Source: Crossiella sp. CA-258035
GTDB taxonomy: Bacteria; Actinomycetota; Actinomycetes; Mycobacteriales; Pseudonocardiaceae
Assembly (NCBI RefSeq): GCF_030064675.1
Contig: NZ_CP116413.1
Location: forward strand, 2,884,001-2,948,000
Direction of reading: 5' to 3'
DNA length: 64,000 bases
Shown: piece by piece, positions 30,786 to 52,054 of the stretch
How the letters are laid out: every line of letters begins with the position of its first letter
How positions within the stretch are numbered: position 1 is the first letter of the stretch
The notes under the pieces: generated by a model
Told to the model about the DNA's origin: nothing
Database searches by the model: none
The model's input: the letters and a program-made list of their open reading frames with translations, nothing else
Position numbers and translations under genes: made by a program

Positions 30786-31310
30786 ATGCGCGACACAGCC
30801 GCGGCCACCAGGGCGATCAGCCGGGTCTGGCCCGACGCCCGGACCGTGGTGGACTACTCGACGCCCGCGGAGTTCGAGGTCCACGGGCGCCCGCCCGAGG
30901 GCGTCGAGCCGCCCCGGAGTCCCTGGCACGTCAAGGTGATGTGGGCCGTGGTCGCCGCGTTCGGGCTGGTGCTCTCCGTGGTCACCGGCGCGCTGGGCGG
31001 CCCGGACGTCAGTGACCGCAAGACCAGGGTGCGCGGGTCCGGTCCGGACGCGCGGGCCGTCGGCCTCGGCCAGGCGGTCCAGCCGGTCTGGCTCGGCGGG
31101 GCCGGCCGCAAGCCGTTCCTGGCCATCGGCGCCGACCGGGTGGCGGCCTTCGTGGTCGCCTACGGCGAGGTGCGGGTGCGGTGGGAGGGCGAGTTCGAGT
31201 CGCTGGCGGTGCGGGGCACGCGCAAGCGGCCGGTGCTGTGCCTGACCTTCGCCGACTCCTCCTCGGTCGAGGTGCCGCTCACCAGGGCGGAGCGCGCCCG
31301 GCTGGGCTAG
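30786..31310 (+). CDS. Hypothetical protein with one membrane helix
   Basis: A 174-residue protein, family unknown. One membrane helix lies near residues 50-68 (VMWAVVAAFGLVLSVVTGALG). Before it is a short cytoplasmic part, and after it a beta-rich domain (PFLAIGADRVAAFVVAYGEVRVRW). Its stop overlaps the convergent mutase stop by 4 bases (CTAG). There is no clear functional link to either neighbour. Confidence 0.7.
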   Translation: MRDTAAATRAISRVWPDARTVVDYSTPAEFEVHGRPPEGVEPPRSPWHVKVMWAVVAAFGLVLSVVTGALGGPDVSDRKTRVRGSGPDARAVGLGQAVQPVWLGGAGRKPFLAIGADRVAAFVVAYGEVRVRWEGEFESLAVRGTRKRPVLCLTFADSSSVEVPLTRAERARLG

Positions 31311-32833
31311 AACGCGGTGGTCGGCGTCCAGCGGCCGTGCACCTCGCGCAACCGGTCCACGATCTCGCCCACGGTCGCGTATGCCTCCACCGCCGTCACG
31401 CAGGCCGGGACCACGTTCGCCCCGGCCTTGGCGGAGGCGCTCAGCTCGTCCAGGGCCCGCTCGACCGCCTCGGCATCGCGGCTGTCGCGGACCCGGCGCA
31501 CGGCGGCGACCTGTTCGGCCTCCGCGCCGGGGTCCACCGCGAACACCTCCAGGGGCTCGGCGGCGGAGGGGAACAGGTTGACCCCGACCACGGGGCGCTC
31601 GCCGCTCTCCACCTCCACCGCGTGCCGGTAGGCGGCGTCGGAGAGCTCGCGCTGGAACCAGCCCGAGCCGATGCAGGCCAGCGCGCCGCCCCTGGCCTCG
31701 ATATCGCCCATCAGCGCCCAGATCCGCTGCTCCAGTTCGTCGGTCAGCGTCTCCACCGCGTAGGACCCGGCCAGCGGGTCGACCGTCTCGGTCAGCCCGG
31801 TCTCGAAGGCCACCACCTGCTGGGTGCGCAGGGCCAGCGTCGCGGCGGCCTCGGTGGGCACGCCGAGGGCCTCGTCGTAGGCGCACACGTGCAGGGTCTG
31901 CACCCCGGCCAGCGCCGCCGCGGTGGCCTCGACCGTGGTGCGGGCGACGTTGTTCAGCGGCTGCTGCGCGGTCAGTGAGGACCCCGCGGTGAAGGCGAAG
32001 ATCCGCAGCTGGTGCGAGCGCGGGTCCTTGGCCCCGTAGACGTCCCGGGTCAGCCGCGCCCACACCCGGCGCGCGGCGCGGAACTTGGCCACCTCGCGCA
32101 GCAGGTCGATGTTGCTGGAGAGGAAGGTGAACAGCGAGGGGGCCACCGCGTCCACGCTGAGCCCGCGCCGCACGCACTCGTCCAGGTAGGCGCGCGCGTT
32201 GGCGAAGGTGAAGGCGATCTCCTGCACGGCGTCGGCCCCGGCCTCGCGGATGTGGTAGCCGCTCATCGCCAGTGGCACCCAGCGCGTGGCGTGCCGGGAC
32301 AGGTGTTCGATCACGTCCACCGCGAGTTGCAGGGAGGCTTCGGGCGGGAAGATCTGGGTGCCGCGCGCGATGAACTCCTTGAGCACGTCGTTCTGGATGA
32401 ACAGCCCGAACGAGCTCGGGTCGACCCCGCGCCGCTTGGCCAGGGCCAGGAACATCGCGGCCCACACGTAGCCGATGGAGTTGGCGGTGGTGCGCACCTG
32501 GCTGATGCGTTCCAGGGGAATCCCGTCCATCAGCGTCTCGACGTCGGCAAGCGAGTCGATGGCCACGCCGACCCGGCCGACCTCGCCCGCGGCCAGCGGG
32601 TGGTCGGAGTCCAGGCCCAGCTGGGTGGGCAGGTCCAGGGCCACGCTGAACCCGGTGACCCCGGCGGTCAGCAGCTGCTGGAACCGGCGGTTGCTCGCCG
32701 CGGGCGTGCCGAACCCGGCGTACTGGCCCATGATCCACGGTTTGGGTTCGGCGGAAACCCCTCGGGTGTAAGGGAACTCGCCGGGTCGTTCGGCACCTTC
32801 CGGCGCGTAGTCCGGGCGCAGGCGCTCCACCAC
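31307..32833 (-). CDS. B12-dependent acyl-CoA mutase, large subunit
   Basis: A 508-residue TIM-barrel subunit of the methylmalonyl-CoA mutase family, which rearranges the carbon skeleton of acyl-CoAs by radical chemistry. Family signatures include QYAGFGTPAASNRRF, LDLPTQLGLDSDHP, IQNDVLKEFIARGTQIFPPEAS and MSGYHIREAGA with the catalytic His. The pocket residues differ from methylmalonyl-CoA mutase: the Tyr89 position aligns with Ala (VSAEPKPW) and Arg207 with Gln (in PEASLQL). Gln is the isobutyryl- and hydroxyisobutyryl-CoA mutase state. The B12-binding domain is absent and must come from a small subunit encoded elsewhere. It is last in a four-gene operon behind the 2-aminobenzoyl-CoA-type monooxygenase. 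Start GTG 32833 lies 3 bases after the previous stop. Confidence 0.88.
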   Translation of the reverse strand: MVERLRPDYAPEGAERPGEFPYTRGVSAEPKPWIMGQYAGFGTPAASNRRFQQLLTAGVTGFSVALDLPTQLGLDSDHPLAAGEVGRVGVAIDSLADVETLMDGIPLERISQVRTTANSIGYVWAAMFLALAKRRGVDPSSFGLFIQNDVLKEFIARGTQIFPPEASLQLAVDVIEHLSRHATRWVPLAMSGYHIREAGADAVQEIAFTFANARAYLDECVRRGLSVDAVAPSLFTFLSSNIDLLREVAKFRAARRVWARLTRDVYGAKDPRSHQLRIFAFTAGSSLTAQQPLNNVARTTVEATAAALAGVQTLHVCAYDEALGVPTEAAATLALRTQQVVAFETGLTETVDPLAGSYAVETLTDELEQRIWALMGDIEARGGALACIGSGWFQRELSDAAYRHAVEVESGERPVVGVNLFPSAAEPLEVFAVDPGAEAEQVAAVRRVRDSRDAEAVERALDELSASAKAGANVVPACVTAVEAYATVGEIVDRLREVHGRWTPTTAF

Positions 32834-32836
32834 GGC

Positions 32837-50579: not shown

Positions 50580-50640
50580 GGACTTGCCACTTCGGCAACG
50601 AAAATTGCCGTCAGCGCCGAGCGGGCGCAAGGTGGGCGGC

Positions 50641-51255
50641 ATGGACGAGAAGTACTGGGACACGCTCTACCGCGAGCGGGAGCAGGTGTTCAGCGGCGCG
50701 GCCAACGGCGTGCTGGTGACCGAGGTCGGTGGGCAGCCGCCGGGCCGCGCCCTGGACGTGGGCGCGGGCGAGGGCGGGGACGCGCTCTGGCTGGCCGGAC
50801 AGGGCTGGCAGGTCACCGCCGCCGACATCTCCTCGGTCGCGCTGGCCAAGGTGGCCGCCGCCGCGCAGGCCCACGGCTGGTCGGTGGACACCCTGCACCT
50901 GGACCTGGCCGTCGCCGCACCGCCGCCTGCCGCCTTCGACCTGGTCACCGCGAGCTTCCTGCCGCTGTTCAAGGCCAACGGCACCGCCCCGCTGCGCGCG
51001 CTGGCCGAGGCGGTGGCCCCCGGCGGCACGCTGCTGGTGACCAACCACCACTTCGACGAGGTCGGCGACCACGAGGGCCACGACGGGCGGGTGGTGCGGA
51101 TGGCCGACTTCTACCGGCCCGCGGACTTCCGGCCGCTGCTGGCGGAGGGCTGGGAGGTGGTGGTCGACGAGCTGCGACCGCGCCCGGAGCCGCTGCCGCC
51201 GGAGGCGCGGCACACCAAGGACCTGGTGTTCAAGGCGGTCCGCCTCACGCCGTGA
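50641..51255 (+). CDS. Class I SAM methyltransferase (TehB-like)
   Basis: A 204-residue methyltransferase with ALDVGAGEGGDALWLAGQGW (motif I), VTAADISSVAL and AVAPGGTLLVTNHHFDE. The opening MDEKYWDTLYREREQVF is typical of TehB/thiopurine-like actinobacterial enzymes. Substrate unknown. It lies 61 bases after kynU in the same direction and overlaps the convergent formamidase gene by 11 bases. A part in the kynurenine route is possible but not required. Confidence 0.86.
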   Translation: MDEKYWDTLYREREQVFSGAANGVLVTEVGGQPPGRALDVGAGEGGDALWLAGQGWQVTAADISSVALAKVAAAAQAHGWSVDTLHLDLAVAAPPPAAFDLVTASFLPLFKANGTAPLRALAEAVAPGGTLLVTNHHFDEVGDHEGHDGRVVRMADFYRPADFRPLLAEGWEVVVDELRPRPEPLPPEARHTKDLVFKAVRLTP

Positions 51256-52054
51256 GGTCCGCCAGTGCCTTGAGCACCGAGGGCCAGGCCGCCGACTCCG
51301 GGTCGATCACGCCGTAGTGGCCCTCGCCGGGCAGTTCGCGCAGCTCAGTGGGATCGCCGGAGGCAACGGCGGTGGCCGCGTAGGAGCGGCTGACCTCCGG
51401 CGGCACCCACGGGTCTGCCAGCCCGTGCAGCAGGATGCCGCGCACCCCGGTGGGCACCAGCCGGGTCGGGTCGGCTGCGGCGTAGCGCTCCCAGTGGGCG
51501 TCCGGCTGGCCGCCGAGCAGCCCGGCCACCGCCCCCTCGCCCAGGTTCTCCTCGTTGGCCAGCACCAGGTCCAGCACCCCGGCCAGGGACAGCACGCCCC
51601 GGATCGCCGGGCGGCGGGGCAGGTGCCACGGGTTGTGCGCGGGCAGCCGGTGCCTGCTGGCCGCCCACATCGCCAGGTGCCCGCCGGCGGAATGACCGAG
51701 CAGAACCACCCGATCGGGATCGGCCGACGCGCCGAGCAGGCCGGGCAGCGCGTCGATCGCGGCCGCCACGTCGTCCAGGGTGCCGGGCCAGCCACCCTCG
51801 GGCTGACCCACCCGGTTGTACTCGATCGTGGCCACCAGGTAGCCCTCGTCGGCCAGCGCGGCGCACATTGGGCCGGTGTGCGTGCGGTCGTACTCGGCGA
51901 GCCAGAAACCGCCGTGCACCACCACGATCACCGGGTGCGGGCCCTCGGCCACGGGGTAGCGGAGGTCGATCACCCGGTCCGGTCCGGGGCCGTAGCGCAG
52001 CACCCGGTCGGGGGCGGGCGCGGGGCGGGTCAGCACGTCACGCGAGTCGGACAC
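51245..52054 (-). CDS. Alpha/beta hydrolase, probable kynurenine formamidase
   Basis: A 269-residue alpha/beta hydrolase. VIVVVHGGFWLAEYD has the HGGxW oxyanion motif of BNA7-type arylformamidases, VVLLGHSAGGHLAMWAA is the nucleophile elbow, LADPWVP holds the likely Asp and GEGHYGVIDP the His. It would hydrolyse N-formylkynurenine to kynurenine, the step between KynA and KynU. This is the only missing step of that section, and the gene is 0.7 kb from kynU. It could instead be a general esterase. Start GTG 52054. Confidence 0.78.
   Translation of the reverse strand: MSDSRDVLTRPAPAPDRVLRYGPGPDRVIDLRYPVAEGPHPVIVVVHGGFWLAEYDRTHTGPMCAALADEGYLVATIEYNRVGQPEGGWPGTLDDVAAAIDALPGLLGASADPDRVVLLGHSAGGHLAMWAASRHRLPAHNPWHLPRRPAIRGVLSLAGVLDLVLANEENLGEGAVAGLLGGQPDAHWERYAAADPTRLVPTGVRGILLHGLADPWVPPEVSRSYAATAVASGDPTELRELPGEGHYGVIDPESAAWPSVLKALADLTA

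Follow-up and report, generated by a model that had tools for sequence, protein, structure and literature searches.

Genes of the locus

The window analysed here is a stretch of 64,000 nucleotides (G000:C1:2884001-2948000) from the single-contig, 9.17-Mb genome of a Crossiella strain, and feature coordinates are window positions. Between positions 31307 and 52054 it holds genes of the kynurenine route, genes predicted to act on anthranilate as a coenzyme A (CoA) thioester, and the gene of a B12-dependent acyl-CoA mutase. Judged from this gene content, it is probably a tryptophan catabolic locus with a lower branch that runs through the B12 mutase. Genes were called with a codon-usage script and identified with NCBIfam and Pfam profiles, scores being given in bits against the curated cut-offs. 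G numbers designate compared genomes, L numbers compared loci, and f16 one family of genomes. The features that bear on the pathway are the following.

31307-32833, minus strand: large subunit of a B12-dependent acyl-CoA mutase, separate clade, 508 aa, without B12-binding domain (PF01642, TIGR00641)
32837-34378, minus strand: AMP-forming acyl-CoA ligase, AMPlig2 (PF00501/PF13193)
34380-36437, minus strand: ADP-forming-type acyl-CoA synthetase (CoA-binding, Succ_CoA_lig and ATP-grasp domains)
36434-38785, minus strand: 2-aminobenzoyl-CoA monooxygenase/reductase fusion, hereafter ACMR (NF006101, above cut-off; 66% identical to the homologue of Arthrobacter sp. Rue61a pAL1)
38809-38821, plus strand: operator-like palindrome TGACGACCGTCAA, ACMR/SDR1 intergenic region (motif scan)
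38842-39603, plus strand: short-chain dehydrogenase/reductase SDR1 (also in 19 of 72 clade-mutase loci)
39970-41601, minus strand: anthranilate (2-aminobenzoate)-CoA ligase (60.3% identical over 100% to the pAL1 ligase)
41657-41669, plus strand: operator-like palindrome TGACGACAGTCAA, ligase/PaaX intergenic region (motif scan)
41707-42567, plus strand: PaaX-family regulator (PF07848, PF20803, PF08223)
43505-43891, minus strand: RidA-family protein, candidate enamine/imine hydrolase (located by tblastn; 56% identical to RidA of the Rhodococcus NJ-530 cluster)
43888-44649, minus strand: SDR2 (common to several other ACMR clusters)
44667-44679, plus strand: operator-like palindrome TGACGACCGTCAA, SDR2/thiolase intergenic region (motif scan)
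44691-45869, plus strand: thiolase of the 3-oxoadipyl-CoA-thiolase type (TIGR01930, above cut-off; best matches PRK09050/pcaF, both under cut-off)
45881-46678, plus strand: MenB/BadI-like crotonase, proposed ring hydrolase (from tree and neighbourhoods; under the MenB and BadI cut-offs)
47974-48429, minus strand: Lrp/AsnC-family regulator, divergent from kynA (PF13404, PF01037)
48556-49395, plus strand: kynA, tryptophan 2,3-dioxygenase (TDO; PF03301)
49410-50579, plus strand: kynU, kynureninase (TIGR01814, above cut-off; PF22580)
51245-52054, minus strand: alpha/beta hydrolase, candidate kynurenine formamidase (PF20434/PF07859)

A sequence-only reading of this DNA had listed kynA, kynU, the hydrolase, the ligase, the fusion, RidA, the SDRs, the crotonase, the thiolase and PaaX, and all were recovered at or near the positions it gave. 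Four genes were absent from it: the Lrp/AsnC regulator, the ADP-type synthetase, AMPlig2, and the mutase large subunit, although the last three lie inside the interval it described. The minus strand continues past ACMR with the synthetase, AMPlig2 and mutase genes, in that order, the first overlapping ACMR by 4 bases and the next two set off by gaps of 1 and 3 bases; they are treated below as one operon with ACMR.

The block is kept gene for gene in three genomes of the same genus (G111, G001 and G002). A fourth, G003, has kept the kyn genes, BadI-like gene, SDR2, RidA, PaaX, ligase and ACMR, and is devoid of the thiolase, SDR1 and the mutase trio. This synteny across the genus indicates that the grouping is not due to chance.

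Anthranilate, a probable substrate as CoA thioester

ACMR matched NF006101 over its whole length (residues 1-763), with 1219 bits for a cut-off of 1078, and is 66.4% identical to the pAL1 gene adjoining the pAL1 ligase gene. The ligase stayed below the cut-off of its best NCBIfam match, the benzoate-CoA ligase family TIGR02262 (357.2 versus 375.25). Aligned end to end, it shares 60.3% identity with the pAL1 ligase of Arthrobacter, an enzyme itself assayed with anthranilate (excerpts of PMC3534580). According to the same excerpts, the pAL1 ligase gene and a chromosomal paralogue both yielded anthranilate-CoA ligase activity when expressed in E. coli, anthraniloyl-CoA was detected in Arthrobacter cells grown on anthranilate, and CoA esters of C7H7NO3 and C7H8O4 acids were present in anthranilate-grown Arthrobacter only, the C7H8O4 ester being possibly cyclohexanedione-carboxyl-CoA; the authors consider that anthranilate metabolism in this organism apparently proceeds via CoA thioesters only (PMC3534580). 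The C7H8O4 ester described in these excerpts fits the product proposed below for RidA. The window RidA itself is under the cut-off of the Rid family model TIGR00004 (48.3 versus 106.25) and 56% identical to an annotated RidA.

Other sinks for anthranilate were searched for in the whole genome. No anthranilate 1,2-dioxygenase was found there (best match 96 bits for a cut-off of 671.9, from a protein whose score for glycine betaine monooxygenase is higher), and no genome match to 3-hydroxyanthranilate dioxygenase was above cut-off (best 30.8, cut-off 145.95). PcaH and PcaG, at 5.01 Mb, account for the strongest intradiol dioxygenase match and the gene next to it; a catechol dioxygenase is possible among three weaker PF00775 places (44-62 bits). 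The sequence-only reading had supposed that neither anthranilate dioxygenase nor catechol would be needed. Its first half agrees with the search, whereas for the second the weaker PF00775 places leave room for a catechol dioxygenase. As the genes stand, anthranilate is very probably handled as a CoA thioester by the ligase and ACMR.

That the CoA module acts instead on salicylate or another 2-substituted benzoate appears very improbable. Such a substrate would suit the NCBI name of NF006101, salicylyl-CoA 5-hydroxylase, and a neighbouring cluster in f16 genomes resembles salicylyl-CoA/gentisate genes and also includes an ADP-type synthetase. However, the identity of 60% is to a ligase assayed with anthranilate, RidA is part of the cluster, and kyn genes adjoin it here and in other lineages. 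Moreover, the old yellow enzyme (OYE) half is fused to the monooxygenase here, whereas the 530-aa f16 protein matches the monooxygenase half only. This suggests that the NCBI name 'salicylyl-CoA 5-hydroxylase/oxidoreductase' is misleading for these fusions in the present context.

The f16 genes just mentioned form a second set beside the anthranilate cluster in L133, L135 and L128, made of the 530-aa monooxygenase without OYE half, the ADP-type synthetase and an AMP ligase. L133 and L135 add a 379-aa protein nearest gentisate 1,2-dioxygenase (244 versus 442 bits) and a FAH-family gene. From these matches the second set is likely a salicylyl-CoA/gentisate-type cluster.

Linkage of the kyn genes to the CoA module

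Kynureninase scored above the TIGR01814 cut-off (265.9 versus 246.4). TDO was well above that of PF03301 (206.7 versus 34.9) and below that of the equivalog model TIGR03036 (333.5 versus 390.7). The formamidase candidate matched general alpha/beta hydrolase and lipase models, none of them specific for formamidases. The joining of the kynurenine route to the anthraniloyl-CoA genes, proposed by the sequence-only reading, is supported by their adjacency, by the 60% ligase identity and by the failure to find an anthranilate dioxygenase.

The linkage is real and recurrent, and it is not new as an arrangement. TDO and a 42% KynU homologue lie beside ACMR in Rhodococcus sp. NJ-530, kynU (seen alone) in Arthrobacter sp. 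ERGS1:01, and TDO with an alpha/beta hydrolase in Ruegeria pomeroyi DSS-3. Five genomes of the same family as the window (G004, G011, G012, G013 and G033) encode a distant fusion (45-48%), in all five with an adjoining KynA-like gene (32-36%). Excerpts of a paper on Cupriavidus metallidurans list both kyn and abm (2-aminobenzoyl-CoA) genes (PMC8879955). In a search among relatives, of the kind that the sequence-only reading had called for, the ACMR fusion was above cut-off in 16 of the 60 genomes searched, the Crossiella genome included, and KynA plus KynU homologues lay within about 19 kb of it in four of these 16, all of the window's genus (in one of the 16, ACMR is on a 6.7-kb contig, too short to show kyn genes).

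Could the kyn genes serve something else, their adjacency being incidental? They have their own Lrp/AsnC regulator, and the operator-like site of the CoA module (see below) is absent from the Lrp-kynA region. Yet adjacency is kept in all five genus genomes examined, it recurs beside unrelated ACMR clusters, acI-type ones included, and no other anthranilate sink was found among those searched for, so that we give this explanation little credit. Independent regulation of the kyn genes had been named beforehand as an argument against the linkage, and the nearby Lrp/AsnC gene and the missing operator-like site go part of the way towards it; we would expect such separation for a peripheral pathway feeding a separately induced central pathway.

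The distant fusions of G004, G011, G012, G013 and G033 (L066-L075) form a second ACMR clade, in other genera of the family, with KynA-like, PaaX, RidA and 275-aa crotonase genes of its own.

Proposed ring hydrolase, thiolase and kinds of lower pathway

ACMR clusters have at least three lower gene sets, and RidA is present in nearly all of them. The first, to which the window belongs, consists of the BadI-like crotonase and RidA, mostly with SDR2 (window's genus, G052 and f16 genomes). The second has an acyl-CoA dehydrogenase and a 275-aa crotonase (by Pfam in G015, with similar genes in several relatives, and by annotation in Ruegeria, Paracoccus and Comamonas). In the third are found FAH, cupin and thioesterase genes (pAL1, Rhodococcus, Tsukamurella and G010).

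The sequence-only reading had drawn on the Azoarcus pathway with its beta-oxidation-like steps. The genes speak otherwise: no acyl-CoA dehydrogenase was found in a search limited to the window cluster, where a BadI-like hydrolase stands together with a B12 mutase and a thiolase. An Azoarcus/Ruegeria-type lower pathway might still operate if its acyl-CoA dehydrogenase and enoyl-CoA hydratase were encoded elsewhere in the genome. Clusters of the beta-oxidation type do accompany ACMR in records of Ruegeria, Comamonas and Paracoccus and in the relatives G015 (acyl-CoA dehydrogenase and crotonase by Pfam), G016 and G020. But the Crossiella clusters are without acyl-CoA dehydrogenase, and it is the BadI-like and thiolase genes that carry the operator-like promoter; we regard this alternative as improbable. 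A gentisate-like lower branch was also considered and rejected, the Rhodococcus NJ-530 versions of FAH, cupin and thioesterase having no match in the window. The pAL1 cupin found no match in the genome, an empty answer which by itself shows nothing; the Rhodococcus cupin did match other clusters.

BadI-like matches (E of 1e-75 or better) occur in 39 of 397 genomes of the order, at 42 places. The window and G052 were mapped, and the neighbourhoods of the other 40 places were inspected. Outside the window, all nine places with at least 79% identity are in ACMR clusters. At 60-74% identity, an acyl-CoA dehydrogenase-like and an SDR gene lie within four genes in 22 of 30 places, accompanied by a ligase in 15 of the 30 (in L139 the dehydrogenase, SDR and ligase were verified by Pfam). 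We take this set to be of the cyclohexanecarboxylate degradation type (BadH, BadI, AliA, AliB). The 74% BadI-like gene of G336, a genome of another family, is again in an ACMR genome. These neighbourhoods support, without proving, a hydrolase that would open 2-oxocyclic CoA esters.

In the tree, window-type proteins group with other ACMR-linked ones (support 100/93 for 13 rows). The ACMR-linked label, which we assigned from the neighbourhoods, needs three changes on this tree and hence does not define one clade. The crotonase shares with BadI (2-ketocyclohexanecarboxyl-CoA hydrolase) and MenB the same branch and the conserved SFDxG motif. The thiolase is above the cut-off of the general thiolase model TIGR01930 (386 versus 241).

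A separate clade of B12 mutases

The mutase is a member of its family by TIGR00641 (552.6 versus 303.8) and PF01642 (588.3 versus 22.1), and lies far below the cut-off of NF006944, the model of methylmalonyl-CoA mutase (MCM) proper (481.8 versus 876, no B12 domain). The gene is 98% identical to that of Crossiella sp. SN42 and 93% to that of Crossiella sp. S99.2; four other PF01642 places exist in the Crossiella genome. In a tree of 37 rows, with 29 of the 69 clade sequences and several long reference branches, the clade is supported at 100/100, apart from the MCM rows and from the row of HcmA (2-hydroxyisobutyryl-CoA mutase, 4r3u). The HcmA row pairs with L091, a paralogue from the Crossiella genome, and the paralogue L241 falls inside the clade.

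Tyr38, Gln147, Arg157 and His194 are found in 69 of 69 clade sequences and align with MCM Tyr89, Gln197, Arg207 and His244 (MCM numbering, fitted to the alignment). HcmA has Ile and Gln at the positions of MCM Tyr89 and Arg207, where all 69 clade sequences have Tyr and Arg; the clade is thus not of the HcmA type at these sites. It differs from MCM at Gly36 (MCM Arg87), Arg114 (MCM Ser164), Phe281 and Ser285 (Gln and Trp in 1req). Because the clade was scanned for with the peptides PWIMGQY and ANSIG[YF][IV]W, the search itself partly imposed invariance at residues 33-38 and 117-124; this circularity does not touch residues 114, 147, 157, 194, 281 and 285, which are outside these peptides. The residue pattern and the tree are consistent with a substrate that would bear a carbonyl adjacent to the group that migrates, and perhaps another carboxylate.

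The only standalone B12-binding subunit found in the genome, of 132 aa, is encoded at 8.38 Mb (8381574-8381924). In 25 of 73 loci a subunit 64-75% identical to it is encoded no more than 5 kb from the mutase gene.

Gene context of the mutase

Close orthologues (E of 1e-150 or better) were limited to four of 200 family genomes, all in the genus. Beyond the family, G336 has a 64% orthologue in a three-gene run synthetase-ligase-mutase, and elsewhere in its genome ACMR (61%), SDR1 (60%), BadI-like (74%) and thiolase (60%) genes. Scanning a collection of species genomes with these peptides gave 73 loci. By tblastn, the mutase reaches 55% identity or more in 72; L241 (a 47% paralogue) was excluded from the mutase counts. 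Neighbourhoods were counted by tblastn with identity thresholds of our own choice. In the stretches fetched around the 72 clade mutases we found AMPlig2 in 65, the ADP-type synthetase in 56, RidA in 39, the BadI-like gene and the thiolase in 36 each, SDR2 in 29, PaaX in 23, the ligase in 21, and ACMR and SDR1 in 19 each. KynA or KynU was present in 15. A KynU-like gene (30%) upstream of the Phytoactinopolyspora mutase proved to be a class-V aminotransferase of general type that lacks the C-terminal domain of kynureninase, and was not counted.

Among the 38 loci with good flanks (at least 9 kb upstream and 2 kb downstream of the mutase), 22 have at least three of the BadI-like, thiolase, RidA, ACMR and ligase genes. 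As a control, 20 ordinary mutase paralogues from ACMR/BadI genomes were examined: none had any of these five genes nearby, and all 20 had a MeaB-like gene. Since the loci are akin to one another, a Fisher value for this comparison does not amount to a true probability.

Of the 53 mutase loci lacking ACMR in the fetched stretch, 34 (and L241 in addition) were checked at genome level, and ACMR was encoded elsewhere in 26 of the 34: in 25 at 52-76% identity across almost the full length (two of these alignments contain one stop), in one as a partial match. All ten named isolates with a clade mutase have ACMR (two Crossiella, Terrabacter, Phytoactinopolyspora, Streptomyces boluensis, Phytomonospora, Longispora, Ornithinimicrobium, Actinorhabdospora and Stackebrandtia). 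The run ACMR-synthetase-ligase-mutase recurs in Terrabacter tumescens, a Tetrasphaera metagenome-assembled genome (MAG) and a Nocardioidaceae MAG.

Low-GC freshwater-type MAGs, such as L233, titled Candidatus Nanopelagicaceae, have fuller clusters. That of L207 comprises ACMR (cut at the end of the stretch), SDR1, TDO (PF03301), the BadI-like gene, thiolase, SDR2, RidA, both synthetases, mutase, ligase, MeaB (PF03308), a B12-binding subunit (PF02310) and kynureninase (PF22580; 234.7 for TIGR01814, below the cut-off of 246.4).

An alternative is that the anthraniloyl-CoA module is real and that the mutase and the two synthetases serve another acyl-CoA, of a branched or hydroxy acid, being merely co-transcribed or co-inherited with it. 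The mutase does occur apart from ACMR, with both synthetases in G336 and with the AMP ligase alone in Streptomyces boluensis, and conversely G003 has an ACMR/BadI module without mutase. Against this stand the same run downstream of ACMR in Crossiella, Terrabacter and the two MAGs, the operator-like site shared by the mutase operon promoter, the clustering with BadI/thiolase/RidA/ACMR/ligase genes in 22 of 38 loci, and ACMR in 45 of the 53 mutase genomes examined (19 in the stretch, 26 elsewhere). We hold this alternative to be unlikely, and the mutase and thiolase to belong, with high probability, to the anthranilate pathway.

Two sets of loci deserve mention in this collection. L199, L200, L207, L214 and L244 come from MAGs titled Bifidobacterium breve; their stretches have 41-57% GC and carry acI-type or related anthranilate clusters, and the titles are probably wrong. 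The MAGs of L182 and L216, one Chloroflexi and one Thermoleophilia, combine the clade mutase with a BadI-like gene and a distant thiolase, and their genomes gave no ACMR match; possibly another ring acid is degraded there.

A palindrome shared by the CoA-module promoters

A 13-bp palindrome, TGACGACMGTCAA, is present in each of the three divergent intergenic regions of the CoA module. Software looking for perfect inverted repeats did not return it; it was spotted by eye in these three stretches and then tested, which makes its presence in them a post hoc observation. The exact motif occurs three times in the window, versus none in 100 shuffles, and three times in the whole 9.17-Mb genome, only at the CoA-module divergent promoters, among them the mutase operon promoter. 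When one mismatch is allowed the genome has seven sites, no more than the backward-read control (4 plus 3). With two mismatches the window has four sites for 2.2 expected, which is not significant (16 of 100 shuffles were as high).

G111, G001 and G002 have the site at the same promoters, and G003 at the equivalent places, two exact and one, at ACMR, with a mismatch. In f16 loci it is exact between SDR2 and the BadI-like gene in four of seven scanned, and near the BadI-like gene with one mismatch in the other three. A Tetrasphaera MAG has an exact copy between thiolase and SDR2. In G015, G020 and G039 the site adjoins the ligase gene, and L207 carries a copy with one mismatch in the ACMR/SDR1 interval. 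A few matches were inside or between unrelated genes in the 32 loci and maps scanned.

The PaaX protein has the three PaaX Pfam domains and is under the cut-off of TIGR02277 (180.5 versus 264.55). We infer that the 13-bp site is the PaaX operator. On this arrangement of sites, the mutase operon, thiolase-BadI, SDR2-RidA, ligase and SDR1 genes probably form one regulon, probably under PaaX and separate from the kyn genes, which are themselves probably under Lrp/AsnC.

Proposed route

The following route, in which the steps after ACMR are deduced from the gene set, would use each kind of enzyme in the cluster once, save the two synthetases and one or both SDRs. KynA, the alpha/beta hydrolase and KynU would convert tryptophan to anthranilate, and the ligase would form anthraniloyl-CoA, which ACMR would dearomatise to 2-amino-5-oxocyclohex-1-enecarbonyl-CoA. 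Hydrolytic deamination by RidA would then give 2,5-dioxocyclohexanecarbonyl-CoA, and the BadI-like crotonase, hydrolysing between C1 and C2, 4-oxopimeloyl-CoA; SDR2 and SDR1 may adjust the C5 oxo/hydroxy group.

Mutases of this family catalyse a 1,2-shift of the CoA-carbonyl. Applied here, it would turn 4-oxopimeloyl-CoA into 2-methyl-3-oxoadipoyl-CoA, much as methylmalonyl-CoA mutase acts on succinyl-CoA, with a ketone replacing the carboxylate. The PcaF-like thiolase would cleave this product to succinyl-CoA and propionyl-CoA, and the carbon balance would be seven to four plus three. Acids of the 4-oxopimelate kind, being 4-oxo acids, lactonise easily, which could explain the two acyl-CoA synthetases as a salvage: they may re-activate 4-oxopimelate lost from a labile gamma-keto thioester. 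We give the exact lower chemistry an even chance of being as written.

Several observations weigh against a mutase-dependent lower branch. As they stand, the two synthetases and the two SDRs have no firm role. The crotonase is under the cut-offs of both BadI (TIGR03210, 285.7 versus 467.6; a relative in an alicyclic-type cluster is likewise under it, with 331.3) and MenB (TIGR01929, 306.5 versus 342.7), and the thiolase under that of the pcaF-type 3-oxoadipyl-CoA thiolases (TIGR02430, 395.4 versus 597). The B12 subunit lies outside the Crossiella cluster, beside two succinyl-CoA ligase-type genes (by eye, similar neighbours adjoin it in L219 and L205), and may serve other mutases too. ACMR is missing from eight of the 34 mutase genomes checked, all of them MAGs by title, four with early-branching or differently arranged loci. 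No operator-like site within one mismatch was found in eight of the 32 scanned loci and maps, Terrabacter among them (G018, G022, G016, G010, Rhodococcus NJ-530, L168, L177 and L219). Finally, G003, G052 and eight f16 genomes have ACMR, the BadI-like gene and RidA, and neither a clade mutase (best 43-46%) nor, in the mapped stretches, a thiolase of the window kind. The BadI branch can therefore run without mutase and thiolase, or with other enzymes.

Relation to known systems

The closest systems differ in their lower parts. The aerobic 2-aminobenzoyl-CoA pathway of Azoarcus evansii, reportedly described by Schuehle et al. in 2001, likewise has a CoA ligase and a fused monooxygenase/reductase; it is described as continuing by beta-oxidation, whereas Crossiella has a BadI-like hydrolase, a B12 mutase, a thiolase and adjacent kyn genes. 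In excerpts of PMC4539516, the steps downstream of 2-aminobenzoyl-CoA dearomatisation are described only as the work of beta-oxidation enzymes. The pAL1 cluster of Arthrobacter sp. Rue61a resembles the window in its ligase (60%), ACMR (66%), PaaX-type regulators and a nearby RidA, but has FAH, cupin and thioesterase genes in place of the BadI-like, mutase and thiolase genes. Its anthranilate derives from quinaldine, and PMC3534580 nowhere mentions kynurenine. On the Ruegeria pomeroyi DSS-3 megaplasmid (NC_006569), too, TDO and an alpha/beta hydrolase adjoin the ACMR, ligase and RidA genes; unlike the window, that cluster has enoyl-CoA hydratase, acyl-CoA dehydrogenase and cupin genes and a MarR regulator.

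Among mutases, HcmA (4r3u) and MCM (1req) are family members by their large subunit, and the Crossiella clade has equivalents of MCM Tyr89, Arg207 and His244, but is separate from both. The Hcm large chain presumably lacks a B12 domain, like the Crossiella mutase.

Our literature search returned no description of this lower pathway; most subscription papers were outside it, so that absence from print is not shown. The CoA/mutase ending predicted here probably differs from the ending described for related pathways. The interest of the locus is this predicted B12-mutase lower branch, which is backed by gene context, co-occurrence, the control and the shared operator-like site. We judge evenly balanced the stronger proposal, namely a new B12 enzyme, a 4-oxopimeloyl-CoA (4-oxoacyl-CoA) mutase, and with it a complete route from tryptophan-derived anthranilate to succinyl-CoA and propionyl-CoA without ring-cleaving dioxygenase, with a range extending from Crossiella of soil to acI-type actinobacteria of fresh water. 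If this were so, the tryptophan catabolism of freshwater bacteria with small genomes would be linked to a vitamin, and a mutase clade now placed by family models only as methylmalonyl-CoA-mutase-like would gain a function. Definite predictions follow from the gene set, namely the intermediates, a new B12-mutase reaction, the end products and a regulon recognisable by its 13-bp site, and they make the lower pathway directly testable.

Other genes and elements in the block

The remaining genes of the block are the following.

39590-39973, minus strand: DUF952 protein (PF06108)
42578-43120: mycothiol-S-transferase-family gene (PF04978)
46662-47267: TetR-family gene
47324-48049: 241-aa protein without family match
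50632-51255, plus strand: S-adenosylmethionine (SAM)-dependent methyltransferase (PF13649)

The mycothiol-S-transferase gene is retained within the cluster in five genomes of the genus, G003 included. Between it and RidA, at 43249-43410, lies a 63-nt inverted repeat (complementarity 89%, spacer 36 nt), which may be a small mobile element. The SAM methyltransferase gene lies between kynU and the formamidase candidate in five genus genomes (49-95% identity to the window copy) and has no evident role in the pathway. The divergent promoter of the TetR gene and the gene of the 241-aa protein (47268-47330) contains two near-identical CCCTATCNNTGATAGA elements, which resemble tet operators.

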